Source: Celeribacter neptunius (GTDB lineage: Bacteria; Pseudomonadota; Alphaproteobacteria; Rhodobacterales; Rhodobacteraceae). From it: a stretch of DNA of 64,000 nucleotides. The translations under genes were made by a program, and so were the position numbers. This document shows positions 43,346-60,925 of the stretch, one piece after another. The notes beneath the pieces are model-generated. The model worked only from the letters and a program-made list of their open reading frames with translations, did no database searches and was not told the DNA's origin. How positions within the stretch are numbered: position 1 is the first letter of the stretch; every line of letters starts with the position of its first letter. The stretch spans positions 124,001 to 188,000 of the forward strand of contig NZ_FORH01000008.1 in assembly GCF_900113955.1 (NCBI RefSeq), given 5' to 3'.

Positions 43346-43364
43346 GATAGTCTCCTTTCGATAC

Positions 43365-44756: not shown

Positions 44757-45246
44757 AGCGTGCATCTCCGAAAATCTGGCTGACAGAGACCACGGCCCAG
44801 AGGATCATCGAGGCAATGCCGGGAATGTAGAAGGGCCAGATCGGCCAGCCCAAGACACCGGCCTCGGCCGCGTCCGAGTGAATCTCGAGCATGCCGAGCA
44901 CCATCCAATAGGCCAGGAACAGCGCAATGGCGGCGGTGAGCGTGAGCCACATGTGATCGAGAAGACGTTTCACCGGCATCGGCGCATTGGCGACGAAGAG
45001 ATCGACCGCCACATGGCCGCGCGAGGCCTGGGTGTAGGGAAAGAACATCAGCGCCGCACCGGAAATGGCGAGCTGGACAAAGTCCTCATAGCCGGGAAGG
45101 CCGGAGACAGGGAGGCCCAACGGGGCCAGAAACCGATCGAGAATGAATGCGCCAGTATTGGTGGTGGTGACCATCACGATGACAAAGAGGATCGCGCCTC
45201 CAAGCATAGCAAAGATGTCTGCCAGGCGCGTCACATGTGCGTGCAT
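44749..45246 (-). CDS. dctQ: TRAP transporter small membrane subunit (gentisate operon)
   Basis: A 165-residue protein with four hydrophobic segments and the DctQ hallmark GHVAVDLFVANAPMPVKRLLD following a second helix (AISGAALMFFPYTQASRG). It pairs with the DctM coded next and the binding protein upstream. Confidence 0.9.
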   Translation of the reverse strand: MHAHVTRLADIFAMLGGAILFVIVMVTTTNTGAFILDRFLAPLGLPVSGLPGYEDFVQLAISGAALMFFPYTQASRGHVAVDLFVANAPMPVKRLLDHMWLTLTAAIALFLAYWMVLGMLEIHSDAAEAGVLGWPIWPFYIPGIASMILWAVVSVSQIFGDARYA

Positions 45247-45360
45247 AGCATGCCTCCCGGTATGGGTGCGTGTTTCGTGGGTGTATCGGGAGAGCGGCGG
45301 GTGGCCCGCCGCTCAGACTGTTGTTTGTCTTGAGCTATTCGCCTGGCTTATGCGCCAGAC

Positions 45361-46407
45361 TTATTCACCCTGAGCTGCGGCTTCGGCGGCGCGGGCGGCT
45401 TCGACCAGCGCAGCGCCGTCGATGCCCTTGCTGGACACTTCCTCGACCCAGCGGGCCACGACCTGTTCGCCGGCGGCTTCGAATTTCGCCGCATCTTCCT
45501 CGGAGAAGGTGGTGCGGCTCACGCCGGCTGCGTCGAGCGCGGAAATCCCGGCGCCTTCGAACTCTTCCCACATGGCACCGATCTCGGCCGAGACATGGGT
45601 GGTGGAATTGTTGTCGATCACCGCTTTCAGATCGTCGGGCAGATCTTCGTAGACGTCCTTGTTCATCGCCAGCATGAAGACGGCGGTGCCGAAACGGTCG
45701 CCATTCGGCAGTTCGGCGGTGTATTTGTCGAGCTCCTGCAATTTCAGCGCCGGCACGATCTCATAGGTGGTCATGGCGCCGTCGATCACGCCCTTGGCCA
45801 TGGCTTCCGGCACGGCGGGGACCGGCAGGCTCACCGGCTCGGCGCCAAGCGCTTCGATCAGCCAGGCTCCGGTGCGGGACGGCGTGCGCAGCTTCATGCC
45901 CGCGACATCCTCGAACTTGGTCACTTCCTTGTTGCCGGAATGGATCAGGTTGCCGTCATTGGAATGCAGGAACAGGATATGGATGTCCTCGAAATCCTCG
46001 GCCAGCAGATCGAGCGAGGCATTCAAGGCGATCGTCGTGTCGGTGGCGGAACCACGGTGCACGGTCGGCAGCTCAAAAACTTCGGTGCGCGGGAAGACCC
46101 CCGGGGTGTAGCCCAGAAGCGTCCAGACGATGTCGGCGGTGCCGTCGCGCACCTGGCTGTAGAGTTCACTGGGTTTGCCGCCCATGGACATCGACGGGTA
46201 GATCTGGATGTCGATCTGGCCGTCGCTCTCGGCGCGCACCTTTTCCGCCCAGGGTTCCAACATCACCTTATGGGCATTGGCCACCGGCGGCAGGAAATGA
46301 TGCATGATCAGGGTGACGTCCTTGGCGAATGCGGACGTCGCGGACAGGGTTGTGGACAGGATGGTTGCCGCGGCCAGTGCGCCGAGCAATTTGGTCTTTT
46401 TGAACAT
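45361..46407 (-). CDS. dctP: TRAP substrate-binding protein (gentisate operon)
   Basis: Periplasmic 348-residue binding protein with a Sec signal peptide (MFKKTKLLGALAAATILSTT). DctP family features are QIYPSMSMGGKPSELYSQVRDGTADIVWTLLGYTP and the arginine motif region MKLRTPSRTGAWLIEALGAEPV. GGAGGAG precedes ATG 46407. It is the first gene of the operon, facing marR across a spacer with two operator-like repeats. It is paralogous to the binding protein at 48940-49980. Confidence 0.93.
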   Translation of the reverse strand: MFKKTKLLGALAAATILSTTLSATSAFAKDVTLIMHHFLPPVANAHKVMLEPWAEKVRAESDGQIDIQIYPSMSMGGKPSELYSQVRDGTADIVWTLLGYTPGVFPRTEVFELPTVHRGSATDTTIALNASLDLLAEDFEDIHILFLHSNDGNLIHSGNKEVTKFEDVAGMKLRTPSRTGAWLIEALGAEPVSLPVPAVPEAMAKGVIDGAMTTYEIVPALKLQELDKYTAELPNGDRFGTAVFMLAMNKDVYEDLPDDLKAVIDNNSTTHVSAEIGAMWEEFEGAGISALDAAGVSRTTFSEEDAAKFEAAGEQVVARWVEEVSSKGIDGAALVEAARAAEAAAQGE

Positions 46408-46454
46408 GTGAGCTCCTCCGATTATCTCTGGGCGCACTCCCGTTGCGCCATATA

Positions 46455-46512
46455 GTGGGTATACTTACTATTGATCTGAGTCAATCTGGTAAGCATACTT
46501 ATTATTGACCTG
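46455..46512. promoter_or_regulatory. Tandem operator-like repeats between dctP and marR
   Basis: ATACTTACTATTGATCTG (46461-46478) and ATACTTATTATTGACCTG (46495-46512) match at 16 of 18 bases, 34 bases apart. Each lies within a partial palindrome of the form GTAAGTATACTTAC (46455-46468 and 46489-46502). The pair sits in a divergent spacer next to a MarR gene, the classic place for its operators. Confidence 0.65.
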
Positions 46513-46572
46513 CCTCATGTGTTTGGGCATTTGGGGCGGGCGAGATGTCGCAGGGTATGGGAGAACAGCGTC

Positions 46573-47043
46573 ATGGCGCTCGAAATTCACAACATGGCAG
46601 GGCACCTGATTCGCAGGCTGAATCAGATTTCCGCCTCGGTGTTTCAGGAGCGGATGAAGGCGCAGGGTCTGACCATGACCTCGGTGCAATTCGCCGCGAT
46701 GAATGCGGTGCGTGCCCATCCCGGCATGGATCAGGCGCGGCTCGCCGGGATGATCGCCTATGACCGGGCGACGATCGGCGGCGTGGTCGACCGGCTGGAG
46801 AGCAAGGGCTTGCTGACGCGCCGGGTCTGCGAACAGGACCGCCGTGCCCGGCTGGTCTCGCTGACCGAAGCGGGCGAGGCGCTTCTGGACGAGCTGATCC
46901 CGGTGGTGCGCAGCTTTCAGGAGGACATCCTCTCCGGGCTGAGCGAGGCAGAGCGCGCGGAGTTTCTGCGCCTCGCTGCGAAAGCCGCCGATGGTGGCAA
47001 TCACCTGAGCCGGGCACCGTTGATTCTCGAAAAGAAGAGCTGA
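46573..47043 (+). CDS. MarR-family regulator of the gentisate operon
   Basis: A 156-residue protein with a winged helix (LTMTSVQFAAMNAVRAHPGMDQARLAGMIAYDRATIGGVVDRLESKGLLTR) and the wing VCEQDRRARLVSLTEAGE. It is likely a repressor relieved by an aromatic acid or its CoA ester. It is divergent from dctP of the gentisate operon. ATG at 46573 is chosen because GGGAG lies upstream; the frame is open to 46519. Confidence 0.9.
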   Translation: MALEIHNMAGHLIRRLNQISASVFQERMKAQGLTMTSVQFAAMNAVRAHPGMDQARLAGMIAYDRATIGGVVDRLESKGLLTRRVCEQDRRARLVSLTEAGEALLDELIPVVRSFQEDILSGLSEAERAEFLRLAAKAADGGNHLSRAPLILEKKS

Positions 47044-47098: not shown

Positions 47099-47130
47099 AA
47101 AAAGACCCGTGCACCCCGCGCGGGTCTTTT
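47099..47130 (+). terminator. Terminator of marR
   Basis: AAAAGACCCG pairs with CGGGTCTTTT around a GC-rich loop, with TTTTGCTTTCC following, 55 bases after the marR stop. The perfect symmetry makes it bidirectional. Confidence 0.85.
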
Positions 47131-47223: not shown

Positions 47224-47248
47224 TAATTGTTCATTGACATAACAATTA
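47224..47248. promoter_or_regulatory. Operator and promoter of the SDR operon
   Basis: TAATTGTT (47224-47231) and AACAATTA (47241-47248) are a perfect 8-bp inverted repeat with a 9-base spacer. The spacer contains TTGACA (47234-47239), a consensus -35 element, and the SDR start is 38 bases downstream. A repressor bound here would block the promoter. The MarR at 51861-52313, coded within this operon, is the likely ligand of the site. Confidence 0.6.
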
Positions 47249-47285
47249 TTCCTTTGCATGGTTTCCTCAAACGGGAGGAGATATC

Positions 47286-48050
47286 ATGCAGATCGAAGGG
47301 TGCACCGCCGTCGTCACCGGCGCGGGCAGCGGGCTCGGGCTTGCCACCGCGACACGTCTGGCGGATCAGGGGGCGAAAGTCGCCGTGCTGGATCTCAATG
47401 GCGAGGCGGCGGCACAGGCGGCTGCCGGGTTCGGTGGCAAGGGCTATGCCTGTGATGTCAGCGATGCCAAGGTGGTCGAAGCGATCTTTGCCGAGATCGA
47501 GATGGACATGGGCGTGCCGCGCATCGTCGTCTCCTGTGCCGGGATCGGCACCGCCTCGCGCATCCTGCCGCGCGACGGCAGCCTGACCATCGACAGCTTT
47601 GCCAGGACCCTGAACGTCAATCTCTTGGGCACCTATACGGTGATGAACATCGCCGCCCGGGCCATGGCTTCGGCCGAGGCTTTGGACGCGGACGGGGCGC
47701 GCGGCGTCATCGTCAACACCGCCTCCGTCGCCTTCGAGGACGGTCAGATCGGCCAGGCGGCCTATTCCGCCTCGAAGGGCGGCGTCGCCTCGATGACCTT
47801 GCCGGCGGCGCGCGAGCTGGCGCGGTTCGGCATCCGGGTCATGGCGATTGCCCCGGGCCTCTTCGAGACCGCGATGAGCGCGGGCCTGCCGGATGATGTT
47901 CGGGCCGAGATCCTGAAATCCGTGCCGTACCCGTCGCGCATGGGCGATCCGGATGAATATGCCCGTCTGGTGCAGGCCATTGTCGAGAACCCGATGCTCA
48001 ACGGCACCACCATTCGCCTCGACGCCGCCGCGCGTATGCCGATCAAGTAA
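47286..48050 (+). CDS. Short-chain dehydrogenase (3-hydroxyacyl-CoA dehydrogenase type)
   Basis: NAD(P)-dependent enzyme of 254 residues with the Rossmann motif TGAGSGLG, the NVNLLGTY helix and the catalytic triad Ser in NTASVAFEDG and YSASK. It resembles type 2 3-hydroxyacyl-CoA dehydrogenases (HSD17B10-like). In this operon it would oxidise the 3-hydroxy-3-aryl-propionyl-CoA made by the hydratase to the 3-keto form. GGGAGGAG precedes ATG 47286. It is the first gene of a long plus-strand operon. Confidence 0.88.
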   Translation: MQIEGCTAVVTGAGSGLGLATATRLADQGAKVAVLDLNGEAAAQAAAGFGGKGYACDVSDAKVVEAIFAEIEMDMGVPRIVVSCAGIGTASRILPRDGSLTIDSFARTLNVNLLGTYTVMNIAARAMASAEALDADGARGVIVNTASVAFEDGQIGQAAYSASKGGVASMTLPAARELARFGIRVMAIAPGLFETAMSAGLPDDVRAEILKSVPYPSRMGDPDEYARLVQAIVENPMLNGTTIRLDAAARMPIK

Positions 48051-48073
48051 GTGCAAGAAAAAAGAAGAACGAG

Positions 48074-48841
48074 ATGACCAGTGAGATCCTGAAAATCGAC
48101 ATCGACGGCCCGGTGGCCACGCTGACTATGAGCCGTCCGGCGAAACGCAATGCCATGTGCGACGAGCTTCTGGAGGCGATCGACGGCTTTTTTTCCGCCC
48201 CGCCCGAAGGCGTGCGGGTGGTGATCCTCACCGGCACTGCCGGGCATTATTGCTCCGGGCTCGACCTGTCGGAACATGTCGCCCGCGACGCCGAGGGCAC
48301 GATGCGCCATTCGCGCAATTGGCATCGGGTGATGGAGACGATCAAATACGGCGGCCTGCCGGTGATCTCGGCCATGTTCGGCGCGGTGATCGGCGGCGGG
48401 TTGGAGCTCGCCGCGGCGAGCCATGTGCGCATCGCCGAACCTTCGAGCATGTTCCAGCTGCCCGAGGGCATGCGCGGCATCTTCGTCGGTGGCGGCGCAT
48501 CCGTTCATGTCGGGCGCATCATCGGGGCTGACCGGATGTGCGAGATGATGCTGACCGGGCGCAAGTATAATTCTGAGGAAGCTCTGGCACTGGGGCTCAC
48601 CCATTACGCGGTGGGCGAGGGCGAGGCGCTGGCGCTGGCCCGCGATCTCGCCGCCAAGATCGCCAAGAATGCGCAATTGTCGAATTACATGATGATTCAG
48701 GCGATCAGCCGGATCGACGACATGTCGAAATCCGACGGGTTGTTCATGGAAAGCATGTGCGCCGCCGTGTCGCAAACCAGCAAGGATGCCGAGGAGGGGC
48801 TCAAGGCCTTTCTCGAAAAACGCGCGCCGGTCTTCAGGTAA
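48074..48841 (+). CDS. Enoyl-CoA hydratase of a phenylpropanoid-type operon
   Basis: Crotonase-fold protein of 255 residues. Both acid residues of true hydratases are in place: GGGLELAAASHVRIAE (first Glu) and MFQLPEGMRGIFVGGGA (second Glu). Hydroxycinnamoyl-CoA hydratase-lyases, which make vanillin or 4-hydroxybenzaldehyde, lack the first Glu as I recall, so hydration only is favoured. The likely substrate is an aryl-acryloyl-CoA made by the ligase at 52365-54182. It starts 23 bases after the SDR gene. Confidence 0.88.
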   Translation: MTSEILKIDIDGPVATLTMSRPAKRNAMCDELLEAIDGFFSAPPEGVRVVILTGTAGHYCSGLDLSEHVARDAEGTMRHSRNWHRVMETIKYGGLPVISAMFGAVIGGGLELAAASHVRIAEPSSMFQLPEGMRGIFVGGGASVHVGRIIGADRMCEMMLTGRKYNSEEALALGLTHYAVGEGEALALARDLAAKIAKNAQLSNYMMIQAISRIDDMSKSDGLFMESMCAAVSQTSKDAEEGLKAFLEKRAPVFR

Positions 48842-48939
48842 GCAGGCGCGCGGATCGGGCGGTAGGAGGTCGTCCGGTCCCAAGAATTCCAAAGACCCGT
48901 GCAAAACGGGCGGACCGTCATGATCTGGGAGGACTATAC

Positions 48940-49980
48940 ATGACCACGATGACTCGCCGTACGGCATTGGCCAGCATGGGGGCGGCGCTTGCCACCCCGG
49001 CCTTTCTGAAAAAAGCCCACGCCGCCGAAGTCACCCTCAGGGTGGCGCATTTCCTGCCTGGTGTCGCGCCGATGCAGACGCAATTCTTCGATGTCTGGGC
49101 CAAGGAAATCTCTGACGCCTCGAATGGCGCCATCGAGATGCAGATGTTCCCGTCGATGCAACTGGGCGGCAAGCCGCCGCAGCTCGCCGATCAGGCGCGT
49201 CAGGGCATTGCCGATATCACCTGGACCCTGCCGGTCTACACGCCGGATCGTTTCCCGGTGGCGGAAACCATGGCGCTGCCCTTCATGGTGACCAATGCCG
49301 AAAAGACCTCGGTTGCGATGCACCAGCTGATGCAGGAGTTCGGACAGAACGAATACAAGGGTCTGAAACCCCTGGCGTTCCACACCCATGACGGGGGCAA
49401 GTTCCACACCCGCGGTCAGAAAATCTCCACCGCCGAGGATCTTAAGGGGCTCAAGCTGCGGGCGCCCAATCAGGCGACCGGCAAGATGCTCGAACTGATG
49501 GGGGCGGAAACCGTGTTCTTCCCGGTGACCGAAATGGTCGTGGGCCTGTCGAACGGTGTCATCGACGGCTGTTGCCTGCCCTATGAGGTGGTGCCGGCCT
49601 TCAAACTGCAGGAGCTGACCTCGGTGACCAACGAACCCGAAGCCGGCGCCCGCGGGCTCTATTGCAACACCTTCGCGCTGGTGATGAACGAGCGCAAATA
49701 CGAGGGCCTCTCCGACGATCTGCGCAAGGTGATCGACGATGCCTCCGGGGCTGCGCTCTCGCAGCGTCTGGGCGCGCAATTCGACAAGTTCGAAGCCTTC
49801 GGTCGCTCCGTCGTCGAAAAGCAGGGCAACGAGATCCACACCATCCCGGCGGCCGAGATCGCCAAGTGGCGCGAGATGGCGACCCCGATCTATGACGAAT
49901 GGATCGGCAAGCTGAACGATGCCGGACATGATGGCGCGGCCATCGTGGCCCGTGCCAACGAACTGCTGGACGCCGGGTGA
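48940..49980 (+). CDS. dctP: TRAP substrate-binding protein (phenylpropanoid-type operon)
   Basis: Periplasmic 346-residue binding protein. The N-terminus MTTMTRRTALASMGAALATPAF with twin arginines is like a Tat signal, unlike the Sec signal of the other DctP. Family features: MFPSMQLGGKPPQLADQARQGIADITWTL, LKLRAPNQATGKMLELMGAETV, and MVVGLSNGVIDGCCLPYEVVP. ATG 48940 follows GGGAGGA. TarP of Rhodopseudomonas, a binding protein for p-coumarate and related acids, is a plausible functional parallel. Confidence 0.92.
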   Translation: MTTMTRRTALASMGAALATPAFLKKAHAAEVTLRVAHFLPGVAPMQTQFFDVWAKEISDASNGAIEMQMFPSMQLGGKPPQLADQARQGIADITWTLPVYTPDRFPVAETMALPFMVTNAEKTSVAMHQLMQEFGQNEYKGLKPLAFHTHDGGKFHTRGQKISTAEDLKGLKLRAPNQATGKMLELMGAETVFFPVTEMVVGLSNGVIDGCCLPYEVVPAFKLQELTSVTNEPEAGARGLYCNTFALVMNERKYEGLSDDLRKVIDDASGAALSQRLGAQFDKFEAFGRSVVEKQGNEIHTIPAAEIAKWREMATPIYDEWIGKLNDAGHDGAAIVARANELLDAG

Positions 49981-49983
49981 ACC

Positions 49984-50523
49984 ATGGCCGAGGGGCGCAA
50001 CATAGAGCTGGAGCAGGGGGATCATACCCCCCTGTTTCGCACCCTGCAGAAGATCTGCCTGATCTCGGCCGGTCTCGGCGGCGTCGTGATTTTTGGCGCC
50101 TCGCTCGCCGTCACCCTGTCGGTGGTGATGCGCAACATCGGGCTTGGCGGCATTCGCGGCGATTTCGAACTGGTGGAACTGGCCTGTGCGGCCTGTGCCT
50201 CGCTGTTCCTGCCTTTGTGCCAATTCAACAAGGGGCATGTGATGGTCGATCTTTTCACCCTCTGGCTCAAGCCCGTGACCCAGCGGCGTTTCGATGGGGT
50301 CTGGACCCTGATCTTTGCCGGCTGCTGGGCCTTTCTGACCTGGCGGCTCGCCGTGGGGATGGGCGAAATGCATGAGTATGGCGACCGCACCATGTTGCTG
50401 CGCGCACCGGTGTGGTGGGTCTACCTGCCGGCGATTTTCGGCGCGGGCCTCTCTGCCGTGGTCGCGGTCATTCAGGCGCTGCCGATGCTGAGCCACGCTT
50501 TCCGTGCTCTGGAGGTGAGCTGA
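49984..50523 (+). CDS. dctQ: TRAP transporter small membrane subunit (phenylpropanoid-type operon)
   Basis: A 179-residue protein with four membrane segments (ISAGLGGVVIFGASLAVTLSVVM first) and the DctQ pattern QFNKGHVMVDLFTLWLKPVTQRRFD. It starts 3 bases after dctP and its stop overlaps the dctM start (TGATG). Confidence 0.9.
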   Translation: MAEGRNIELEQGDHTPLFRTLQKICLISAGLGGVVIFGASLAVTLSVVMRNIGLGGIRGDFELVELACAACASLFLPLCQFNKGHVMVDLFTLWLKPVTQRRFDGVWTLIFAGCWAFLTWRLAVGMGEMHEYGDRTMLLRAPVWWVYLPAIFGAGLSAVVAVIQALPMLSHAFRALEVS

Positions 50524-51845
50524 TGGAACCGCTCACAATCGCCATCATCATGGTCATCGGCCTGCTCGTGCTGATCTTCGCACGCATGCCGATCGCGCTG
50601 GGCATGGGGCTCGTCGGCGCGCTGGGCTATATCAAGCTCGCCTCGCCCTATGCGCTCATGGCCTATTTCAACACCGCCTGGGTCGACAAATTCATGTCCT
50701 ACGAGCTGGCCATCGTGCCGCTCTTCATCCTGATGGGGCATTTGGCGACCCGGTCGGGGATCTCGGCGGCGATCTTTGCCGCCTCGAACGCCTGGATCGG
50801 GCATTTGCGCGGCGGTCTCGCCATGGCCTCGGTCGCGGGCTGCGCGATGTTCGGATCGATCTCCGGCTCGTCTCTCGCCACTGCCTCGACCATGGCGCGC
50901 GTCGCCCTGCCGGAGATGCGCAAGCACGGCTACTCCGGCGCGCTGGCCTCGGGTTCTCTGGCGGCAGGTGGCACTTTGGGCATTCTCATTCCGCCTTCGG
51001 TGGTGCTTATCATCTACGCGCTCCTGACCGAGCAGAATATCGTCAAACTGTTCCTGGCGGCGACCATCCCCGGCATCTTGGCCGTGATCGGTTTCTGTAT
51101 TGCCATCGCGGTCTATGTCCGGCTCTACCCGAACGAAGGCCCGACTCATGATCCGGCGCCGTTCAGCCAGCGCCTGAAAGCCTTGAAAGACATCTGGCAT
51201 ATCGTGGTGATCTTCGTCGTGGTGCTGGGCGGCATCTATGGCGGCTTCTTCACACCCGCGGAGGGGGCCTCCGTCGGTGTGATCCTGATGCTCGTCGCCG
51301 GGCTTTTGACCAGAGGGCTCAATGCCCGCACCATCCTCGATTGCCTGATCGACACGGCGGGCTCGACGGCAATGATCTTTGCCATCGTCTTTGGCGCCGA
51401 TATTTTCAACGTCGCGCTTGCCCTCTCGCGCATGCCCTCCGAGGTTGCCGCCTATTTCGCCACGGCCAATGTCGCACCGATCGTGGTTCTGGGCGGGATC
51501 ATCGTCTTTTACCTGATCATGGGGTGTCTCATGGACAGCCTGTCGATGATCCTTCTGACCGTGCCGGTGTTCTTTCCGACCATCATGGCGCTGGATTTCG
51601 GGTTGATGCCGGAACAGCAGGCGATGTGGTTCGGGATCATCTCGCTCGTGGTGGTGGAAATGGGGCTGATCACGCCCCCCGTCGGCATGAACCTTTTTGT
51701 CATCTCCTCGATGGCCAAGGACATCCCGACGAGCCAGATCTTCCGCGGCACCACGCCCTTCATCATCGCGGAGTTCTTCCGGATTGCTATTCTGGTGAGT
51801 TTCCCGGTGTTGAGCTATTGGCTGGTCGATCTGGTCGCCAATTGA
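50523..51845 (+). CDS. dctM: TRAP transporter large membrane subunit (phenylpropanoid-type operon)
   Basis: A 440-residue protein with about 12 membrane segments. The DctM signatures AGCAMFGSISGSSLATASTMARVALPEMRK and GTLGILIPPSVVLIIYALL are clear, and LITPPVGMNLFVISSMAKDIP lies near the end. The start at 50523 overlaps dctQ; the longer frame runs inside dctQ. It is a close relative of the other DctM in this window. Confidence 0.93.
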   Translation: MEPLTIAIIMVIGLLVLIFARMPIALGMGLVGALGYIKLASPYALMAYFNTAWVDKFMSYELAIVPLFILMGHLATRSGISAAIFAASNAWIGHLRGGLAMASVAGCAMFGSISGSSLATASTMARVALPEMRKHGYSGALASGSLAAGGTLGILIPPSVVLIIYALLTEQNIVKLFLAATIPGILAVIGFCIAIAVYVRLYPNEGPTHDPAPFSQRLKALKDIWHIVVIFVVVLGGIYGGFFTPAEGASVGVILMLVAGLLTRGLNARTILDCLIDTAGSTAMIFAIVFGADIFNVALALSRMPSEVAAYFATANVAPIVVLGGIIVFYLIMGCLMDSLSMILLTVPVFFPTIMALDFGLMPEQQAMWFGIISLVVVEMGLITPPVGMNLFVISSMAKDIPTSQIFRGTTPFIIAEFFRIAILVSFPVLSYWLVDLVAN

Positions 51846-51860
51846 GGAAGGGGAAAGCCG

Positions 51861-52313
51861 ATGAAAAAGCCGCTCGAAACCAAAGAGATCACCGACAGGA
51901 ACCTGCGCCAGTTCGTGGGCTACAACATGAAGCGCGCCTTTCTGGCGGTGCGCGAGGATCTCGCCCAGCACCTCGAGGCGCTCGGGCTCAGGATGACCTC
52001 CTTCTCGGCCCTGGCGGTGATCATCGAGAACCCCGACATCTCCCAGAGCCGCCTCGCCGAAGCGCTCAAGATCGAGCGCTCCGGCGTGGTGGTGCTGGTG
52101 GATGAGTTGGAAAGCGCCGACCTGATCGAACGCGGCCGGGTCGAAGGCGACCGCCGGCAATATGCGCTCAGGGCCACCCCGGCGGGTGAGGCGCGCTGGC
52201 AAGCCGCGGAAAAGGCGGTGCAGGCGCATGAGGACGGGATTTTTGCCGCTTTGACGGCAGAGGAACGCAGGACCCTGAAAGCCCTGTTGGGCCGGGTCCG
52301 ACGGGCGACATAG
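51861..52313 (+). CDS. MarR-family regulator inside the phenylpropanoid-type operon
   Basis: A 150-residue protein with a winged helix (LGLRMTSFSALAVIIENPDISQSRLAEALKIERSGVVVLVDELESADLI) and wing RVEGDRRQYALRATPAGEA. It is coded within the operon between dctM and the CoA ligase, as are PhdR/CouR-like repressors near phenylpropanoid genes that answer to aryl-CoA. It would most simply bind the dyad at 47224-47248. Confidence 0.88.
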   Translation: MKKPLETKEITDRNLRQFVGYNMKRAFLAVREDLAQHLEALGLRMTSFSALAVIIENPDISQSRLAEALKIERSGVVVLVDELESADLIERGRVEGDRRQYALRATPAGEARWQAAEKAVQAHEDGIFAALTAEERRTLKALLGRVRRAT

Positions 52314-52364
52314 CCCGTACAAGCATATCGGCGCGAAGGAGACGCGCTGTCATGGGAGGAACGC

Positions 52365-54182
52365 ATGAAAGATCTGACAACGGGGCTGACGCTGGCACCG
52401 CATTCGGTAAGGCTGGAGCGCAATGGCGCAGAGGAGATGATCCTCACCTCGACCCTGCCGCTCGACCCGGTGGTCGAGCACACCGGAATCTGGCTGGAGA
52501 AATGGGCCGCCCTGCGCCCCGATGTGACCTATCTCGCCGAACGCTCCGGCGAGGGTTGGCGTGAGCTGGGCTATGGTGAAGTGCTCGAGCGGGTAAAAGC
52601 CATCGCCAGCGCTTTGGCCGCGCGCGGTCTCGATCATTCGACGCCCATTCTGATCATGTCCGGCAATTCCGTCGATCACGCGCTCCTGTCCTTTGGTGCG
52701 CAATGGGCCGGCGTGCCCACCGTGCCGCTGGCAGAGCAATATTCGCTCATCGAAGAGGCACATTTCCGCCTGCAATACGCGATTAACAAGACCCGGCCGA
52801 AGATGGCCTTTGTCGACAATGCGGCGCGCTATGCCAAGGCGCTGGCGCTCGCCGATCTCGACGGTATCGAAATCGTGGCCTCTCTCCCGGAGGGCGCGCC
52901 ACGCCCCGTGACGCCTTTTGCCGAGCTCCTGAAAGGTGACCGGGGCGTGGACCTGGATGCGGTGCATGCCGGGGTCGGTCCCGACACGCTGGCGAAGATC
53001 CTCTTCACCTCCGGCTCCTCGTCGGACCCCAAGGGCGTGATGACCACCCAGCGGATGATGTGTGCCAATCAGTCGATGATGTCCTCGGTCCTGCCCTTCA
53101 TGAAGGAGCGCCCGCAGCGTATCGTCGACTGGTTGCCCTGGAACCACGTGTTCGGCGGCTCGCACAATGTCAACATGATGCTGATGCACGGCGGCTCCTT
53201 CTATATCGACAATGGCAAGCCGACGAAGGCGCTGTTCGGGCAGACGGTCGAGAATGTCACCGCCATGCCCGGCACCGCCGCCTTCAACGTGCCGGTTGGC
53301 TTTTCCATGCTGGTGCATGAGATGGAGCACAATCTGGCGCTGCGCGAGGCCTATTTCAAAGATCTCGACATGCTGTTCTACGCCGGGGCGTCCTTGCCAC
53401 AGGACGTCTGGACGCGGCTCGAGGAAATGGCCATCGAGGTGCGGGGCAAACTGCCCCTGATGATCTCGAGCTGGGGCCTGACCGAGACCGCGCCGGCCAA
53501 TGTGATGGTGCACGAACCGATCGGGCGCTCCGGCGTGATCGGCGTGCCGCTTCCCGGCTCCGAGGTCAAATTGATCCCCGATGCCGAGATGCGCTGCGAG
53601 ATCCGCGTGCGCGGGCCCAATGTCATGCCGGGCTATCTCAATGACCCGGAAAAGACCGCCGAGGCCTTCGATGAAGACGGGTTCTTCATCACCGGCGATG
53701 CGGTGAAATTCCTCGATGCCGACGATCCGAACCGTGGTCTCGTCTTCGATGGCCGTGTCTCCGAGGATTTCAAACTCCTGACCGGCACCTGGGTGCAGGC
53801 CGGCAAGCTGCGGCTCGATGCTCTGGAAGCGCTGCGGGGGCTCGTGCTCGATGTCGTCATCTGCGGCCATGACCGCGGCGAGATCGGCCTCTTCGTCTTC
53901 CCGCGCCCGGATCATGTCCATGGCGACAACTCCTCCGAAGGGGCGGTGATTGACGAGCATCTTCAGGCCGAGATCCATCACGTCCTGCGCAAGATGGCCC
54001 GCGCCGCCTCCGGCTCCGCCAAGCGCATTGCGCGGGCGATCATTCTCTCTGAGCCGCCCTCGGTGAAAGACGGTGAGATCACCGACAAGGGGTCCTTGAA
54101 CACCCGCAAAGTCATCACCCGCCGCGCCGATCTTTTGGAACGTCTCTACGACAACGAAGACCCGGCGCTCATCCGCGTATAA
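52365..54182 (+). CDS. Aryl-CoA ligase of the feruloyl-CoA synthetase type
   Basis: Adenylate-forming enzyme of 605 residues: KILFTSGSSSDPKGVMTTQ is the ATP loop, SSWGLTETAPAN the adenylation motif, and EDGFFITGDAVKFLD the hinge region. The sequence resembles feruloyl-CoA synthases (Fcs), which activate ferulate, p-coumarate or caffeate. GGGAGGA precedes ATG 52365. It follows marR in the operon and supplies the CoA thioester for the hydratase and SDR. Phenylpropionates or long-chain acids cannot be ruled out as substrates. Confidence 0.88.
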   Translation: MKDLTTGLTLAPHSVRLERNGAEEMILTSTLPLDPVVEHTGIWLEKWAALRPDVTYLAERSGEGWRELGYGEVLERVKAIASALAARGLDHSTPILIMSGNSVDHALLSFGAQWAGVPTVPLAEQYSLIEEAHFRLQYAINKTRPKMAFVDNAARYAKALALADLDGIEIVASLPEGAPRPVTPFAELLKGDRGVDLDAVHAGVGPDTLAKILFTSGSSSDPKGVMTTQRMMCANQSMMSSVLPFMKERPQRIVDWLPWNHVFGGSHNVNMMLMHGGSFYIDNGKPTKALFGQTVENVTAMPGTAAFNVPVGFSMLVHEMEHNLALREAYFKDLDMLFYAGASLPQDVWTRLEEMAIEVRGKLPLMISSWGLTETAPANVMVHEPIGRSGVIGVPLPGSEVKLIPDAEMRCEIRVRGPNVMPGYLNDPEKTAEAFDEDGFFITGDAVKFLDADDPNRGLVFDGRVSEDFKLLTGTWVQAGKLRLDALEALRGLVLDVVICGHDRGEIGLFVFPRPDHVHGDNSSEGAVIDEHLQAEIHHVLRKMARAASGSAKRIARAIILSEPPSVKDGEITDKGSLNTRKVITRRADLLERLYDNEDPALIRV

Positions 54183-54193
54183 GGAATTGAAAT

Positions 54194-55069
54194 ATGGTAG
54201 ATTTTTCCAGCGTTCGCGCGATTGATTTTCACACCCATGCCGAGGAGGCCTGTGGCTGTCACGACGATGACGGCTACGACGATCTGCAGGCCTCGATGGC
54301 CAAGTATTTCGGCGCGCCGTGGAACCACCCGCCCACGATAGATCAGACCGCCGCGCATTACCGCGAGATGAACATCGCCGCGGTGATCTTTCCGGTCGAT
54401 GCTGAGCGTGAGACCGGCTATCGCCGTTACAACAATTACGAGGTGGCGGAGGCCTGCGCCCAACATTCGGACATCCTCATTCCGTTTGCCTCGATCGATC
54501 CGGCCAAGGGCAAGCTGGGCGCCCGCGAGGCCCGCGACCTGGTGGAAAACCATGGCATCCAGGGCTTCAAATTCCACCCGACCATGCAGGGTTTCTACCC
54601 CAATGATCGTGACGCTTACGTGCTTTATGAGGCGATCGCCGAAAGCGGCAAACCGGCGCTGTTCCACACCGGGCAGACCGGGGTCGGTTCAGGCATGCCC
54701 GGCGGCAATGGTATGCGGCTGAAATACTCCAACCCGATGTATATCGACGATGTGGCCGTGGACTTTCCCGAGATGCCGATCATCCTCGCCCACCCGTCCT
54801 TCCCGTGGCAGGAAGAGGCGCTGAGCGTGGCGACGCACAAGCCCAATGTCTATATCGACCTGTCGGGCTGGTCGCCGAAATATTTCCCGCCCATTCTGGT
54901 GCGCTATGCCAATACGATGCTCCGCAAAAAGATGCTCTTCGGCTCCGACTGGCCGATGATCGCGCCGGAGAAGTGGCTCGATGCCTTTGACAAAGCCGAG
55001 TTCCGCGACGAGGTACGCCCGCTCATCCTCAAGGAAAACGCCATGCGGCTCTTGGGTGTCTCCGAATGA
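54194..55069 (+). CDS. Amidohydrolase-family protein, candidate aryl beta-ketoacyl-CoA hydrolase
   Basis: A 291-residue TIM-barrel metallohydrolase with the expected ligands: AIDFHTHAEEA (HxH), GFKFHPTMQGF, PALFHTGQTG, IILAHPSFPWQ and LFGSDWPM (Asp). It starts 11 bases after the CoA ligase. No thiolase lies in this operon. In actinobacterial phenylpropanoid clusters (phd/cou), an amidohydrolase in this position is proposed to cut the 3-keto-3-arylpropionyl-CoA by hydrolysis into the aromatic acid and acetyl-CoA. I infer the same role here; it is not proven by sequence. Confidence 0.85.
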   Translation: MVDFSSVRAIDFHTHAEEACGCHDDDGYDDLQASMAKYFGAPWNHPPTIDQTAAHYREMNIAAVIFPVDAERETGYRRYNNYEVAEACAQHSDILIPFASIDPAKGKLGAREARDLVENHGIQGFKFHPTMQGFYPNDRDAYVLYEAIAESGKPALFHTGQTGVGSGMPGGNGMRLKYSNPMYIDDVAVDFPEMPIILAHPSFPWQEEALSVATHKPNVYIDLSGWSPKYFPPILVRYANTMLRKKMLFGSDWPMIAPEKWLDAFDKAEFRDEVRPLILKENAMRLLGVSE

Positions 55070-55233
55070 CCCCGTTTTCGACGAGAGCGCGCTCGCCGGC
55101 CCGTAGGGTGGCGACGCAACGCGTATTCAGTGCGCTTTATGGTAGCCAAATTCGCGCGACTTTTGTTTGAAGCGCATCACCAGAAAATCGCCAGCCCGGT
55201 CGTGCTGGAAGCACGCCTCCGGCATGACACGGG

Positions 55234-55276
55234 CAGGCGATCGCGCGGCGGCCTTTGGCCTTGTCCCGCGCGGAAG
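55234..55276. repeat. Dispersed intergenic repeat, copy C
   Basis: CAGGCGATCGCGCGGCGGCC followed by TTTGGCCTTGTCCCGCG and CGGAAG. It matches copies A (16941-16976) and B (59109-59146) but lacks two bases near the end and has a GATC-containing insertion. It lies in the 222-base spacer before the second acyl-CoA dehydrogenase, which otherwise shows no gene. Confidence 0.6.
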
Positions 55277-55291
55277 TTCAAGAGGTGTAAC

Positions 55292-56848
55292 ATGACCCCG
55301 TTCAAAGCCCCCGTTGATGACATCCTCTTCTGCCTGCGCGAGGTTGCGGGCGCCGACCGCTTGCCGGATTGGGACGCGGAGATGGCCGAGGGCATTCTCG
55401 AGCATTTCGCCGGTTTCGCCGAAGGCGTCATCGCGCCTTTGGATGAGCCTGGCGATGCCCAGGGCTGTGCGCTCCAGGACGGTCGCGTCACTATGCCCGA
55501 TGGGTCCAAACCCGCCTTCGATCAGCTCGCCGAAGGCGGCTGGCAGGGGCTCACTGCGCCCGAGGACTTCGGTGGAATGGGCCAGAACGCGCTTTTGGCC
55601 GCCGGTGTCTCGGAGATCTTTTCCGGCGCCAACCACGCCATGCAGATGGTCTGCAACCTCGTGCCCGGCGCCATTTCGACGCTGATGAAATTCGGCACGG
55701 AGGCACAAAAACAGTATTGGATTCCGCGTCTTGCGGCGGGTGAAACGCTCTCCACCATGTGCCTGACCGAACCGGGCGCGGGATCCGATCTCTCTCGCAT
55801 CCGCACCAAGGCCACCCGCGAGGGGGATCAATGGCGGATCGAGGGGGAGAAAATCTTCATCTCCGGCGGCGATCAGGACATGTCCGAGGACATCCTGCAT
55901 CTGGTCCTGGCCCGCACCGGCGCGCCGGAAGACGGGATCAAAGGTCTGTCGCTGTTCCTCTGTGCGTCCGACATCAATGGGGCGCGCAACGCGGTCACCG
56001 TGACCCGGATCGAGGAGAAACTCGGCCTGCACGCTTCGCCCACCTGTCAGCTTGCTTTCGACCGGGCGCAAGCCGAACTGATCGGCGAAGAGGGCGCCGG
56101 TCTCCTGGCGATGTTCACCATGATGAACCACGCGCGCCTCGACGTCTCGTTGCAAGGCGTCGCGCATGCCTCTCGCGCGCATCAGATCGCCGCCGCCTAT
56201 GCCGCCGAGCGCAAACAGGGGCGCAAGCCCGACGGCACCGAGGCCATGCTGGCCGATCACCCGGATGTGCGGCGCATGTTGGATGAGCAGCGCAGTCTCG
56301 CATTGGGCGCCCGCGCCATGACCTATCTGACCTTTGTCGAGCTGGCGCTTGGCGAGAACCGCGCGCTGGTCGATTTCCTGACGCCGATCTGCAAGGTCTT
56401 CTGCACCGAGGCCGGGATCAGATCCGCCGATCTCGGCATTCAGGTGTTGGGCGGCTATGGCTATCTCACGGAATACCGCGTGTCCCAGACCTGGCGCGAT
56501 GCCCGCATCACCTCGATCTACGAAGGCGCTAATGGCATTCATGCCGTGGCCATCGCCACCCGTGGACTGCGCAGTGCTGACGGTCCGGAGGCCTTCGCTA
56601 CACTGGTGACCGAGCTGGCTGGGGGCGATGCGTCCTGTCTAGATCTTCTGTCGCACTGGCAGGAGGCGCGTGCGGGCATGGTTGAGGCGGCGCTGGAAAA
56701 ATCCCATGATTTCATGGCGCTGACCGCAGAGCTTCTGTTTCAGGCGGTCTGGTGCCGTTTGGCCGTGACGGGAGAGGCCGAGTTGATACGATTGGCCAAA
56801 TCCGTGGCGCGCCGCCCCTTGCCGGTGCGTCTGCCGCTGCTGGCTTAG
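55292..56848 (+). CDS. Acyl-CoA dehydrogenase of the phenylpropanoid-type operon
   Basis: A 518-residue FAD enzyme related to the one at 25164-26936 (MCLTEPGAGSDLSRIRTKA, GEKIFISGGDQDMSED, SIYEGANGIHAVAIATRGL with the catalytic Glu) but about 70 residues shorter, with a trimmed C-terminal domain. ATG 55292 is chosen because AGAGG precedes it; the frame is open to 55130 through the repeat. It is separated from the amidohydrolase by a 222-base spacer. Its likely role is to desaturate dihydro-forms (arylpropionyl-CoA) so that they can enter the same route. Confidence 0.87.
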   Translation: MTPFKAPVDDILFCLREVAGADRLPDWDAEMAEGILEHFAGFAEGVIAPLDEPGDAQGCALQDGRVTMPDGSKPAFDQLAEGGWQGLTAPEDFGGMGQNALLAAGVSEIFSGANHAMQMVCNLVPGAISTLMKFGTEAQKQYWIPRLAAGETLSTMCLTEPGAGSDLSRIRTKATREGDQWRIEGEKIFISGGDQDMSEDILHLVLARTGAPEDGIKGLSLFLCASDINGARNAVTVTRIEEKLGLHASPTCQLAFDRAQAELIGEEGAGLLAMFTMMNHARLDVSLQGVAHASRAHQIAAAYAAERKQGRKPDGTEAMLADHPDVRRMLDEQRSLALGARAMTYLTFVELALGENRALVDFLTPICKVFCTEAGIRSADLGIQVLGGYGYLTEYRVSQTWRDARITSIYEGANGIHAVAIATRGLRSADGPEAFATLVTELAGGDASCLDLLSHWQEARAGMVEAALEKSHDFMALTAELLFQAVWCRLAVTGEAELIRLAKSVARRPLPVRLPLLA

Positions 56849-56864: not shown

Positions 56865-57728
56865 CTAGGTCTCGCCGGCGCCCTCTCCCGAGACCCTTGC
56901 GCGATAGGCGCTCGGGGTCTCGCCCGTGCGTTTTCGAAACCGGCGCGAGAAATACGGCGGGTCGGCAAAGCCCAGCCGATAGCCGACCTCGGCCACCGAC
57001 AGGCGCGTGAACGCAAGATGGCGACAGGCCTCGGTCATCACCGCCACTTCCAGATAGCTCGAGAGCGTCATCCCGGTCTGGCCCCGCACGATACGATTGA
57101 GATGGCCCGCGGTCATATGCAGCGCCTGCGCATATTGGGTTGCAGTCCAGCCCTCCGCCAGATGATCGGCGATCAGGGCATCGAGCCGCTGCATTTGTCG
57201 GTTCGGGTCCTGCGCCGTCGTCGGCTCTTCCGTCTCTTCGGCCAATGTAACCAGGAGCGCATGCGACAGCGCCACCAGCCGCTGTGTGCGAAATGTGCCA
57301 GACATGTCATGGAAATGTGCAAGTGGTGCAAGCAGGCCGGAGCCTGTCGCAGACAGCATGCCGTGATGAGCGCGGGCGAGCCAGGCGGTGAGCGCCGGGG
57401 TCTGAGGCCCGAGCCTCTGGATCACCGGCGAGGGCAGGGACAGCACGCTGCCCTCGGTGCCCAGCTCAAAGCCGAACCCGTGCACGATTTTCGGCGGAAC
57501 ATAGAGAAATTCTCCGCTTTTCAGCGCCATGTCCCGCCCGTCCAGCGTCACCTCGGCATGACCCTGTTCGATATGAAACAGCTGTGCCATCTGGTGATGC
57601 CGATGCGGCGAAATCCGCCAGCCATGGAGCCGTGCCCGGTCGAAGATCCGCTCGCAATGCACCACATCCGGAAAAGCGCTGGTCTCGCCAAAGAGGTTGA
57701 AAACGGGAATGGGGTTGGTCTCATTCAT
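56865..57728 (-). CDS. pobR: AraC-family activator, probable PobR
   Basis: A 287-residue protein with an N-terminal cupin-like domain (RISPHRHHQMAQLFHIEQGHAEVTLDG) and a C-terminal pair of helix-turn-helix motifs (ATQYAQALHMTAGHLNRIVRGQTG and SVAEVGYRLGFADPPYFSRRFRKRTGETPSAYR). It is divergent from pobA, where AraC-type PobR activators respond to 4-hydroxybenzoate. It converges on the acyl-CoA dehydrogenase gene with 16 bases between. Confidence 0.88.
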   Translation of the reverse strand: MNETNPIPVFNLFGETSAFPDVVHCERIFDRARLHGWRISPHRHHQMAQLFHIEQGHAEVTLDGRDMALKSGEFLYVPPKIVHGFGFELGTEGSVLSLPSPVIQRLGPQTPALTAWLARAHHGMLSATGSGLLAPLAHFHDMSGTFRTQRLVALSHALLVTLAEETEEPTTAQDPNRQMQRLDALIADHLAEGWTATQYAQALHMTAGHLNRIVRGQTGMTLSSYLEVAVMTEACRHLAFTRLSVAEVGYRLGFADPPYFSRRFRKRTGETPSAYRARVSGEGAGET

Positions 57729-57816
57729 GCCGGAAAAGTACCATTATTTGCCGGGCGGGTCCATTCTGATCCGTATGGGCTGCGCGTATTCTCCTGTCAA
57801 AATGGAGGAAACGCAT

Positions 57817-58995
57817 ATGACCACTCTCAAGACGCAAGTCGCCATCATCGGCGGCGGCCCTTCGGGACTTCTGCTGTCGCAGCTGCTGAACAAGGCGGGC
57901 ATCGAGACCGTCATTCTCGAACGCGCGACCCGCGACCACGTGTTGTCGCGCATCCGGGCCGGCATTCTCGAATGGGGCACGGTGGATCTGCTGCGCGAGG
58001 CCGGTGTCGGCGCCCGGATGGACGCGGAGGGCATCCCGCATGACGGCTGTTACCTCACCGATGACGAGCTGATGGTGCATGTGGATTTCAAGGAACTCAC
58101 CGGCAAACAGGTCATGGTCTATGGCCAGACCGAGGTCACGCGTGATCTCTACACCGCGCAGGATGGCATGGGCACGACAGTGCTGCACGAGGTCTCGGAT
58201 GTGGAAATCTGCGATCTTGATCAGCCGACCTCCTCTGTCACCTTCACCCATGAGGGCGCGCGCAAAAAGCTTGAATGTCTCTATGTTGCCGGCTGCGACG
58301 GGTTCCATGGCGTCTCTCGCAAGACCATTCCGGAAGAGAAACGCCGCGAATTCGAACGGGTCTACCCGTTTGGCTGGCTTGGTATCCTGTCGGAAACCCC
58401 GCCGGTCAATGACGAGCTGATCTATTCGAACTCGCGCCACGGTTTCGCGCTCGCCTCAATGCGCAACGAGAATCTCGTGCGCTATTACGTGCAGGTGCCG
58501 CTTTCGGACAAGGTCGAGGATTGGTCGGATCAACGCTTCTGGGATGAATTCTCCCGCCGCATTCCGTCGGATGCCGCCAGCCGCCTGATCACCGGGCCAT
58601 CGATTGAGAAATCCATCGCGCCGCTCAGGAGCTTTGTCTCCGAGCCGCTGCGCTGGGGCAATCTCTTCCTCGTCGGCGACAGCGCGCATATCGTGCCGCC
58701 GACCGGCGCCAAGGGGCTGAACCTCGCCGCCTCCGACGTGTACTATCTCTACACTGCGCTGATCGACGCCGTGACCGGTGGAACCAAGAGCGGGATCGAG
58801 GAATATTCCGCCCGCGCGCTGGAACGGATCTGGAAAGCCATGCGGTTCAGCTGGCAGATGACCACCATGTTGCACCGCTTCGATGGCGAGGATGCCTTTG
58901 CCGAACAGATGCGCAAGGCGACGCTCAACCATCTCGCCACCTCGGAAACCGCGCGCCGCGATCTGGCCGAGAATTACATCGGCCTGCCGTTCTGA
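57817..58995 (+). CDS. pobA: 4-Hydroxybenzoate 3-monooxygenase
   Basis: FAD/NADPH enzyme making protocatechuate from 4-hydroxybenzoate. The 392-residue protein has VAIIGGGPSGLLLSQLL at the N-terminus, the VAGCDGFHGVSRKTI motif in the middle and LVGDSAHIVPPTGAKGLNLA near residue 290, all typical of PobA. ATG 57817 follows GGAGGA. It links the upstream side-chain operon to the pca genes: the acid released there is its expected substrate. Confidence 0.96.
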   Translation: MTTLKTQVAIIGGGPSGLLLSQLLNKAGIETVILERATRDHVLSRIRAGILEWGTVDLLREAGVGARMDAEGIPHDGCYLTDDELMVHVDFKELTGKQVMVYGQTEVTRDLYTAQDGMGTTVLHEVSDVEICDLDQPTSSVTFTHEGARKKLECLYVAGCDGFHGVSRKTIPEEKRREFERVYPFGWLGILSETPPVNDELIYSNSRHGFALASMRNENLVRYYVQVPLSDKVEDWSDQRFWDEFSRRIPSDAASRLITGPSIEKSIAPLRSFVSEPLRWGNLFLVGDSAHIVPPTGAKGLNLAASDVYYLYTALIDAVTGGTKSGIEEYSARALERIWKAMRFSWQMTTMLHRFDGEDAFAEQMRKATLNHLATSETARRDLAENYIGLPF

Positions 58996-60249: not shown

Positions 60250-60271
60250 CGGTTTTGTCCTCTTGAACGCG

Positions 60272-60297
60272 AAAAGGGGCGGTCGCTGCCGCCCCTT
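60272..60297 (-). terminator. Hairpin between pcaG and pcaB
   Basis: AAGGGGCGG (60274-60282) pairs perfectly with CCGCCCCTT (60289-60297), loop TCGCTG. On the minus strand the hairpin runs into TTTT at its foot, 22 bases before the pcaB start. It could lower transcription of pcaB relative to pcaHG. Confidence 0.6.
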
Positions 60298-60318
60298 ATA
60301 ATCGCTTTTGGTCACGTC

Positions 60319-60924
60319 TTACAGATCGAGAAACACCGTCTCATCTTGGCCCTGCAGGCGGATGTCGAAACGGTATTTGCCTCCGCTGGTCTTCTTTGCG
60401 ATCAGCGTATTGACGCGCGGGCGTTGCTCGATCCGCTTCAGGAGCGGATCGTCATCGTTGTCCTCATCTTCGAAATAGATCCGGGTGTTGAGGCCGATGT
60501 TGATGCCACGCGCCACGACCCAGAGCGAGATATACGGGGCGCTTTCCACGCCACCACGGCCCTTGTAAGAGCCCGGTTTGACGGTGCGCAGCGTGAATTC
60601 CCCGCTTTCGGCATCGGCGGCAAAGCGGCAATGACCGGTAAAGGCCGGATCTGCGCCCTCGCTGCCCGGAAAGACGCCAGCCGCATCGCATTGCCAGCTC
60701 TCGATGAGCGCGTCGCGCATCGCCCAGCCGGTGCCATCGAACACCGAACCGGTGATCTCGATGATCTCGCCTTTGGCGTTGCTCTCATCAAGGAACGGCG
60801 TGGTGCCGATCTCTTCCTCGTAATAGCCGCCATTGCCGGCGTAGGTCGGCATGAGGCCGATGTGGACATAGGGGCCGGCGGTCTGGGACGGGGTTTCTTG
60901 CAAGGTATCGAGTTTCTGGACCAT
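60319..60924 (-). CDS. pcaG: Protocatechuate 3,4-dioxygenase, alpha chain
   Basis: Structural partner of PcaH; it has the same fold but no iron ligands. The 201-residue protein begins QETPSQTAGPYVHIGLMP and contains SVFDGTGWAMRDALIESWQ, typical of the alpha chain. It starts one base after the pcaH stop. Confidence 0.95.
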   Translation of the reverse strand: MVQKLDTLQETPSQTAGPYVHIGLMPTYAGNGGYYEEEIGTTPFLDESNAKGEIIEITGSVFDGTGWAMRDALIESWQCDAAGVFPGSEGADPAFTGHCRFAADAESGEFTLRTVKPGSYKGRGGVESAPYISLWVVARGINIGLNTRIYFEDEDNDDDPLLKRIEQRPRVNTLIAKKTSGGKYRFDIRLQGQDETVFLDL

Positions 60925-60925
60925 C

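Follow-up and report, generated by a model that had tools for sequence, protein, structure and literature searches.

Several bacterial systems that are close to the one described here have been reported. In actinobacteria, the amidohydrolase step of hydroxycinnamate catabolism is performed by CouO (PMC4737184), and PhdC is listed as a 3-oxoacyl-coenzyme A (CoA) ketohydrolase (PMC5479773). The proteins listed for ferulate in Streptomyces scabies include an amidohydrolase whose locus tag is next to those of a feruloyl-CoA synthetase and a hydratase (PMC6904314), and four Rhodococcus Pip enzymes, similar to those acting on hydroxycinnamates, jointly yield an aromatic acid and acetyl-CoA (PMC12753220). 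The Hpe pathway for hydroxyacetophenones forms hydroxyphenyl-β-ketopropionyl-CoA by carboxylation, and its enzyme HpeF is 95% identical to CouO (PMC9618137). Regarding uptake, the tripartite ATP-independent periplasmic (TRAP) transporter TarPQM of Rhodopseudomonas palustris belongs to the CouR regulon, and its binding protein TarP has nanomolar constants for coumarate, caffeate and ferulate (PMC3610893). A 2025 study of aromatic metabolism in roseobacters presents the degradation of coumaric and ferulic acids as still open in these marine bacteria (PMC12442348). The subject of this work is a nine-gene operon of Celeribacter neptunius (genome of 4.40 Mb), a 9.6-kb block on the + strand at 47286-56848 of an analysed stretch of 64,000 nucleotides (contig NZ_FORH01000008.1, positions 124,001 to 188,000), called the window below. 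It carries genes encoding a short-chain dehydrogenase/reductase (SDR), a crotonase, the TRAP proteins DctP, DctQ and DctM, a MarR regulator, a ligase, an amidohydrolase and an acyl-CoA dehydrogenase, in this order.

We consider it likely, with good confidence, that the block constitutes one regulon for the uptake and CoA-dependent β-oxidative deacetylation of p-hydroxycinnamates, p-coumarate in the first place, ended by an aroylacetyl-CoA hydrolase of the CouO/PhdC/HpeF type. The reactions, the transport substrate, the co-transcription and the regulatory response of the operon are all inferred from its sequence. Thus, the phenolic acid would be imported by DctPQM, formed by the solute-binding protein DctP (48940-49980; PF03480), the small permease DctQ (49984-50523; PF04290) and the large permease DctM (50523-51845; PF06808, and TIGR00786 over its cut-off), and would then be converted to its CoA thioester by a feruloyl-CoA-synthase-like aryl-CoA ligase (52365-54182; PF00501). 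The double bond of the side chain would be hydrated by the crotonase, a proposed p-hydroxycinnamoyl-CoA hydratase (48074-48841; NF006013/PRK08150 over cut-off), and the 3-hydroxyl group would be oxidised by the SDR, a proposed 3-aryl-3-hydroxypropionyl-CoA dehydrogenase (47286-48050; PF00106), leading to 3-aryl-3-ketopropionyl-CoA. The amidohydrolase, a proposed 3-aryl-3-ketopropionyl-CoA hydrolase (54194-55069; PF04909), would cut this β-keto thioester through a hydrolytic retro-Claisen reaction, releasing 4-hydroxybenzoate and acetyl-CoA, and the ring would later be processed by PobA and the Pca enzymes. Saturated 3-arylpropionates would probably enter the route as cinnamoyl-CoAs through the acyl-CoA dehydrogenase, a proposed 3-arylpropionyl-CoA dehydrogenase (55292-56848; PF00441/02770/02771; nearest solved relative 6ijc), and the intra-operonic CouR-like MarR protein (51861-52313) would probably repress at 47227-47245 until hydroxycinnamoyl-CoA is present. 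The position of the pobA and pca genes directly after the operon favours p-coumarate, but ferulate may also be used, since three matches to the VanA-type (vanillate demethylase) family PF19112 lie elsewhere in the genome.

The top Pfam match of each operon gene is above the curated cut-off. Spacing between the genes ranges from an overlap of 1 base to a gap of 98 bases, except for the 222 bases that precede the acyl-CoA dehydrogenase gene. All nine genes are under purifying selection, as judged from their nonsynonymous and synonymous divergence (dN 0.04-0.15 versus dS 0.66-1.44 against the Celeribacter loci L021 and L022; for L027, a third locus at greater distance, dS values were undefined or showed saturation). 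Seven loci assigned by name to Celeribacter (L019-L022, L024, L025 and L029) have these nine genes in identical order, and relatives of the operon appear in many named loci of Rhodobacterales and Hyphomicrobiales. A preliminary description of this DNA had reported the full gene set, a direct run into pobR-pobA and pca, and the lack of both thiolase and aldehyde dehydrogenase; all of this was borne out, although its extent of 47224-56848 holds only at the end, as the first gene begins at 47286. The 12 thiolase (PF00108) matches of the genome include two on the window's contig, C17 (one at window positions 23634-24320, the other 334 bases beyond the window end), and none in the operon; the 23 aldehyde dehydrogenase (PF00171) matches are all located on other contigs.

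The ligase, hydratase and SDR are, from sequence comparison, orthologues of rhizobial hydroxycinnamic acid (HCA)-type genes and not of those of the actinobacterial proxies. The plasmid cluster of Rhizobium sp. Q54 (L099) is annotated as encoding a feruloyl-CoA synthase and a 4-hydroxyphenyl-β-ketoacyl-CoA hydrolase, and also carries a TRAP transporter and an acyl-CoA dehydrogenase; its ligase, crotonase, SDR and amidohydrolase are, respectively, 40, 51, 53 and 71% identical to those of the window. Across both rhizobial loci, L099 and L100, the corresponding ranges are 40-41, 48-51, 51-53 and 71-72%, and the gene layout in Rhizobium sp. TH2 is alike. Both crotonases exceed the PRK08150 cut-off. 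As in a Gram-negative HCA deacetylation cluster, the window and L099 each group in one locus a ligase, a crotonase, an SDR, an amidohydrolase and a MarR gene that are related between the two, and the window operon has no thiolase. The ligase is also the sole match to itself in its own genome at an E-value of 1e-20 or better.

The actinobacterial comparison was made with proxy loci (L101, L134, L125 and L126) standing in for the genes of RHA1 and C. glutamicum. In these, the ligase is only 22% (L101) or 26% (L134) identical to that of the window and the SDR 30% (L101), the MaoC hydratase of L101 gave no BLASTP match to the window crotonase, and L125 and L126 hold relatives of the ligase, SDR and MaoC of the L101/L134 type rather than of the window genes. 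The likeness to actinobacterial phd/cou clusters put forward in the preliminary description is thus limited to the logic of the gene set, which includes a MarR regulator, and to the hydrolase, since the ligase and SDR are distant and MaoC is unmatched. As for the Gram-negative version noted there, one had already been described in Agrobacterium fabrum (PMC7797058). In a class-wide sample (289 genomes; ten contexts) no locus was identifiable as that of A. fabrum.

The amidohydrolase shows the PF04909 fold with the HxH, His, His, Asp pattern, and the residues of this metal site are kept in 112-113 of the 113 amidohydrolase rows compared. A single-sequence structure prediction was discarded (pLDDT, the predicted local distance difference test score, of 41), and a model from alignment A2 was used instead. 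Relatives encoded in actinobacterial plasmid loci share 50-64% identity with the enzyme; among the stand-ins for CouO, the values are 55% for Rhodococcus L102, from an hpe-like cluster, 64% for Streptomyces L125, 63% for Nonomuraea L126 and 71-72% for the rhizobial entry. These actinobacterial relatives, together with near-identical copies in hpe-like clusters, support the hydrolytic cut of the side chain suggested earlier for this locus. No second close copy was found in the window's own genome. Several observations on its relatives can be added. Close hydrolases (83-89%) with neither ligase nor hydratase nearby occur in L052, L054, L061 and L111, and in L054 a thiolase gene and a DctP gene lie beside the hydrolase gene. 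A haloarchaeal plasmid (L105, 8001-8843) encodes a 41% relative next to an enoyl-CoA hydratase and paa genes. A metagenome-assembled genome labelled Thiothrix (Gammaproteobacteria; L028) carries the cluster, with a 91% identical hydrolase, reflecting either horizontal transfer or a misbinned contig. In L121 the hydrolase reading contains an in-frame stop, and in L131 the annotation divides the ligase-matching stretch into an AMP-binding protein and a hypothetical protein.

The most interesting result of the analysis is that this hydrolase is shared between two lignin routes. By our own tblastn rules, which define the cin and hpe labels, 8 of the 113 hydrolase rows are hpe-like; in seven of them a biotin carboxylase, a carboxyltransferase, a HAD phosphatase and an acetoacetyl-CoA-synthetase-like ligase are encoded nearby (Pfam-checked in L106), and the eighth, on the short contig L074, has only the biotin carboxylase. 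This gene content is that of the Hpe pathway, whose intermediate is the same aroylacetyl-CoA that cinnamate β-oxidation would form (PMC9618137). The hpe label requires six changes on the protein tree, all forced by starred branches, gains being indistinguishable from losses and L102 and L127 lying on long branches. An approximately unbiased (AU) test rejected the six alphaproteobacterial hpe rows as a single clade (p-AU 0.015, for a group named after the tree had been seen).

Three Celeribacter genomes hold both clusters, and the hydrolase open reading frame (ORF) is the sole common DNA found between the fetched loci of each, the cinnamate-side locus of the third having flanks of only 1.5 kb. 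Within a genome, the cin and hpe copies align over 866 bases at 95.4, 95.4 and 97.7% identity, whereas hydrolase DNA from different lineages is 85-86% identical; at third positions, agreement is 88-93% within a genome versus 62-65% between lineages, whether hpe is compared with hpe or cin with cin. The hpe-like loci L026 and L106 align over 10.9 kb at 87%. The hydrolase DNA tree groups the copies by genome or close lineage, and a single hpe clade is rejected (p 5e-6). At the protein level, a single origin for the hpe copies of these three genomes was not rejected by the AU test (p 0.19), but the DNA test is preferred because these proteins differ by only 1-4%. Apparent gene conversion confined to the hydrolase ORF is the simplest reading of these sequences, repeated in-place gene replacement being the alternative. 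Under either, evolution has handled the cin and hpe copies like a single enzyme, and this speaks for aroylacetyl-CoA being the substrate of both. It seems somewhat more probable than not that the hydrolase is an end module for aroylacetyl-CoA common to two unrelated lignin pathways, the TRAP-coupled cinnamate operon and the hydroxyacetophenone-carboxylation cluster, which entered hpe-like clusters several times and whose Celeribacter copies were homogenised by ORF-limited gene conversion. Its presence in two lignin pathways provides independent evidence for the substrate, and suggests a reusable part for lignin upgrading. It was also observed that a UPF0261/Tm-1-like gene for an ATP-binding protein is present in the hpe-like loci L026, L106, L109 and L127, which come from Celeribacter and a plasmid of Pseudomonas putida. 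The phosphoenolpyruvate (PEP)-type kinase genes of L102 and L103 have no match in these four loci, and the UPF0261/Tm-1-like gene is a candidate alternative hydroxyacetophenone kinase.

The frequency of the association with TRAP import was examined in a sample whose 80 genome-contig loci were those matching the window best out of at least 586 relatives. Loci shorter than 5 kb (L001-L018 and L082), the duplicates L107, L108 and L110, and L121, owing to its in-frame stop, were left out before counting; 31 of 112 rows with short flanks were dropped, giving a full-flank set of 81 of the 112 loci with at least 8.5 kb on each side. Among these, cin-type loci of the window's kind (cinI) were distinguished from those of the rhizobial kind (cinH). 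As the sample was chosen by likeness to the window's hydrolase, the frequencies of the TRAP transporter and of the acyl-CoA dehydrogenase apply to close relatives only. A TRAP large permease is present in 45 of 54 cinI, five of eight cinH and one of eight other full-flank loci, and was not found in the hpe (0/6), hydratase-only (0/4) or actinobacterial (0/1) ones. Within the 45 TRAP-bearing cinI loci, 21 have a DctM of the window type (at least 60% identity) and 24 a more distant one, so that at least two TRAP lineages are involved. The operon is a genuine and well-conserved form of a pathway type already known, and this form is widespread in its close relatives. The chemistry put forward in the preliminary description is likely right, but the TRAP pairing, presented there as possibly little described, is not unusual, given its frequency and the fact that R. 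palustris pairs a TRAP importer with a lyase route (PMC3610893). Among the papers listed by searches of open-licence literature, none joins TRAP import to the amidohydrolase route.

DctP, DctQ and DctM all exceed their cut-offs, which makes a complete transporter. Among solved structures, DctP matched six chains at an E-value of 1e-60 or better, the next one being at 5e-40; the closest of these were presumably solved with aromatic acids. In L047, L050, L060, L062, L104 and L113 a tannase/feruloyl-esterase-like gene was observed in or adjoining the cluster, which makes the uptake of phenolic esters conceivable in some relatives.

With respect to regulation, the best of 33 PDB matches of the operon MarR is a CouR (6c28, 57 bits), which we take to be that of R. 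palustris; the match to RHA1 CouR (5cyv, 3fm5) is weak (32 bits), and the protein is 32% identical to the MarR of L099. CouR proteins let go of DNA on hydroxycinnamoyl-CoA (PMC4737184). An operator-like palindrome, TTGTTCATTGACATAACAA, lies at 47227-47245, starting 59 bases 5' of the SDR start. It has no other exact copy in the 4.4-Mb genome, where two more sites are found at two mismatches to a looser pattern. The half-site pattern occurs 5' of the SDR gene in 17 of 50 cin-type loci, the window counted, versus 0.65 expected from mononucleotide shuffling, and in 29 of 79 loci the palindrome, at four or fewer mismatches, precedes one or another gene of the cluster; none of 285 shuffled regions, taken singly, came under six mismatches. 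Taking into account that a TTGACA hexamer occupies the centre of the palindrome, a bound repressor could cover a promoter. Upstream of it, between the operon and the preceding MarR gene (MarR-A), an intrinsic-terminator-like hairpin is located at 47100-47130 (+ strand), with a 13-pair stem followed by a T-containing tail; the scanned stretch has 13 such sites versus 7.2 in shuffles.

Some observations weigh against a regulon dedicated to p-hydroxycinnamates. The gene pobA lies inside the locus in just 14 of 54 full-flank cinI loci. The ligase scores 651 bits with PRK12582, and the rhizobial one 704, both under the cut-off of 777, so that no model fixes the substrate. The binding protein of a second TRAP transporter, upstream of the operon, shares the six best solved relatives of DctP, and this group therefore does not single out cinnamates. 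The kinship of the hydrolase with CouO (WP_011597356.1), PhdC and Atu1421 was judged from stand-in sequences. A sigma-70 consensus scan reported no promoter at 47227-47245. Finally, the Pip enzymes use crotonic and dodecenoic acids too (PMC12753220).

The first of the alternative explanations is that saturated 3-arylpropionates, such as 3-(4-hydroxyphenyl)propionate, are the main substrates, entering through the acyl-CoA dehydrogenase, with cinnamates being secondary. The enzyme is under purifying selection, and a homologue is encoded in 44 of 54 full-flank cinI loci; however, it was not found in the other 10, nor in six of eight full-flank cinH loci, suggesting that the core can function in its absence, and TarP of R. 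palustris, encoded beside coumarate genes, binds hydroxycinnamates (PMC3610893). We regard this possibility as unlikely, though it keeps more weight than the others.

It would be more improbable still that the operon degrades aliphatic or other β-substituted acyl-CoAs and lies near pob and pca by chance. The crotonase and the acyl-CoA dehydrogenase have the solved relatives 4izb and 6ijc, which we assume to be DmdD and DmdC of dimethylsulphoniopropionate breakdown, and the close hydrolases of L052, L054, L061 and L111 stand, as mentioned, apart from ligase and hydratase genes; the substrate range of the Rhodococcus Pip set points the same way (PMC12753220). Nevertheless, the hydrolase is near-identical to copies in hpe-like clusters, the ligase, hydratase and SDR are orthologous to those of annotated feruloyl clusters, and the operon, with its CouR-like MarR, is flanked by gentisate-type genes on one side and protocatechuate genes on the other.

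There is very little to be said for a non-β-oxidative route in which the crotonase would act as a hydratase-lyase, giving 4-hydroxybenzaldehyde that is then oxidised to 4-hydroxybenzoate. In R. palustris, CouA/CouB are joined to the same auxiliary parts, a TRAP importer and CouR (PMC3610893). However, no aldehyde dehydrogenase goes with the cluster (0 of 23 PF00171 matches on C17), the SDR and the CouO-type hydrolase recur in it, and the crotonase falls in PRK08150, as does that of a rhizobial cluster that also encodes an SDR and the hydrolase. No chain named HCHL stands among the top 60 of the 151 PDB rows obtained with the crotonase, an absence that proves nothing. Just as improbable is that the amidohydrolase is a mere thioesterase, the freed 3-aryl-3-ketopropionate decarboxylating to hydroxyacetophenone: the bonds listed for the superfamily (C-O, P-O, C-N, C-S, C-Cl) include C-S and not C-C (PMC12753220), but a thioesterase would undo the thioester that the Hpe ligase makes just ahead of the hydrolase (PMC9618137), the hpe-like clusters found here carry genes for both, the four Pip enzymes together reach an aromatic acid and acetyl-CoA (PMC12753220), and a close hpe carboxyltransferase with which to use the acetophenone is missing from the genome of the window (best match 31%).

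The proposed p-hydroxycinnamate regulon is followed by genes able to process its proposed aromatic product. Outside the operon, pobR (56865-57728, - strand), named as in the preliminary description, encodes an AraC-type regulator with a below-cut-off match to TIGR02297 (HpaA), and is divergent from pobA (57814-58995, + strand), whose product is a 4-hydroxybenzoate 3-monooxygenase (TIGR02360 over cut-off). Next, pcaB, pcaG, pcaH, pcaC and pcaD of the protocatechuate branch occupy 59194-62839 on the - strand, with NCBIfam equivalogs over cut-off (PRK05975, TIGR02423, TIGR02422, TIGR02425 and TIGR02427). On the other side, the second TRAP transporter (43365-46437, - strand) has a divergent MarR-A gene (46519-47043), and two near-repeats lie at about 46455-46515 in the promoter gap between them. 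This transporter adjoins two genes, that of a 3-hydroxybenzoate 6-monooxygenase at 42125-43345, whose match is over cut-off, and that of a gentisate-dioxygenase-like cupin at 39572-40675, whose match is below it. Thus, window positions 39572-47043 probably serve 3-hydroxybenzoate uptake and a gentisate route, and this TRAP transporter and its MarR are outside the cinnamate operon, belonging beside the gentisate-type cluster.

Taken together, the operon is a concrete and testable candidate for the hydroxycinnamate route of roseobacters, a single block that unites an importer, the enzymes, a regulator and an operator-like site, and several known systems come close to it. The A. fabrum SpG8-1b hydroxycinnamate region (Atu1415-1417, Atu1421 and HcaR/Atu1422) likewise offers a Gram-negative synthase, hydratase, dehydrogenase, terminal cleavage enzyme and MarR repressor (PMC7797058). 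The window operon has a TRAP transporter; the word transporter is absent from that report, which terms Atu1421 a β-keto-thiolase and has no acyl-CoA dehydrogenase among its six enzymes (PMC7797058). The layout of the rhizobial loci L099 and L100 resembles this HCA region, and from that layout Atu1421 would correspond to the amidohydrolase described here. As proposed for the window, the cou system of R. jostii RHA1 has a terminal amidohydrolase step that releases the aromatic acid, together with a MarR repressor responding to hydroxycinnamoyl-CoA (PMC4737184), and the phd system of C. glutamicum has the ketohydrolase PhdC (PMC5479773); the actinobacterial proxy loci differ from the window in their distant ligase and SDR (22-30%), in hydration by a MaoC protein and in that no TRAP transporter was found in the one full-flank locus. 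In the Hpe pathway of Rhodococcus rhodochrous GD02 the last step, on hydroxyphenyl-β-ketopropionyl-CoA, is carried out by HpeF, as proposed for the window, but this intermediate is reached via phosphorylation of the acetophenone, carboxylation and ligation (PMC9618137). Finally, R. palustris also encodes a TRAP hydroxycinnamate importer with catabolic genes in the same MarR (CouR) regulon; unlike the window operon, it employs enzymes of a non-β-oxidation route and has, in addition, the ABC importer CouPSTU (PMC3610893).

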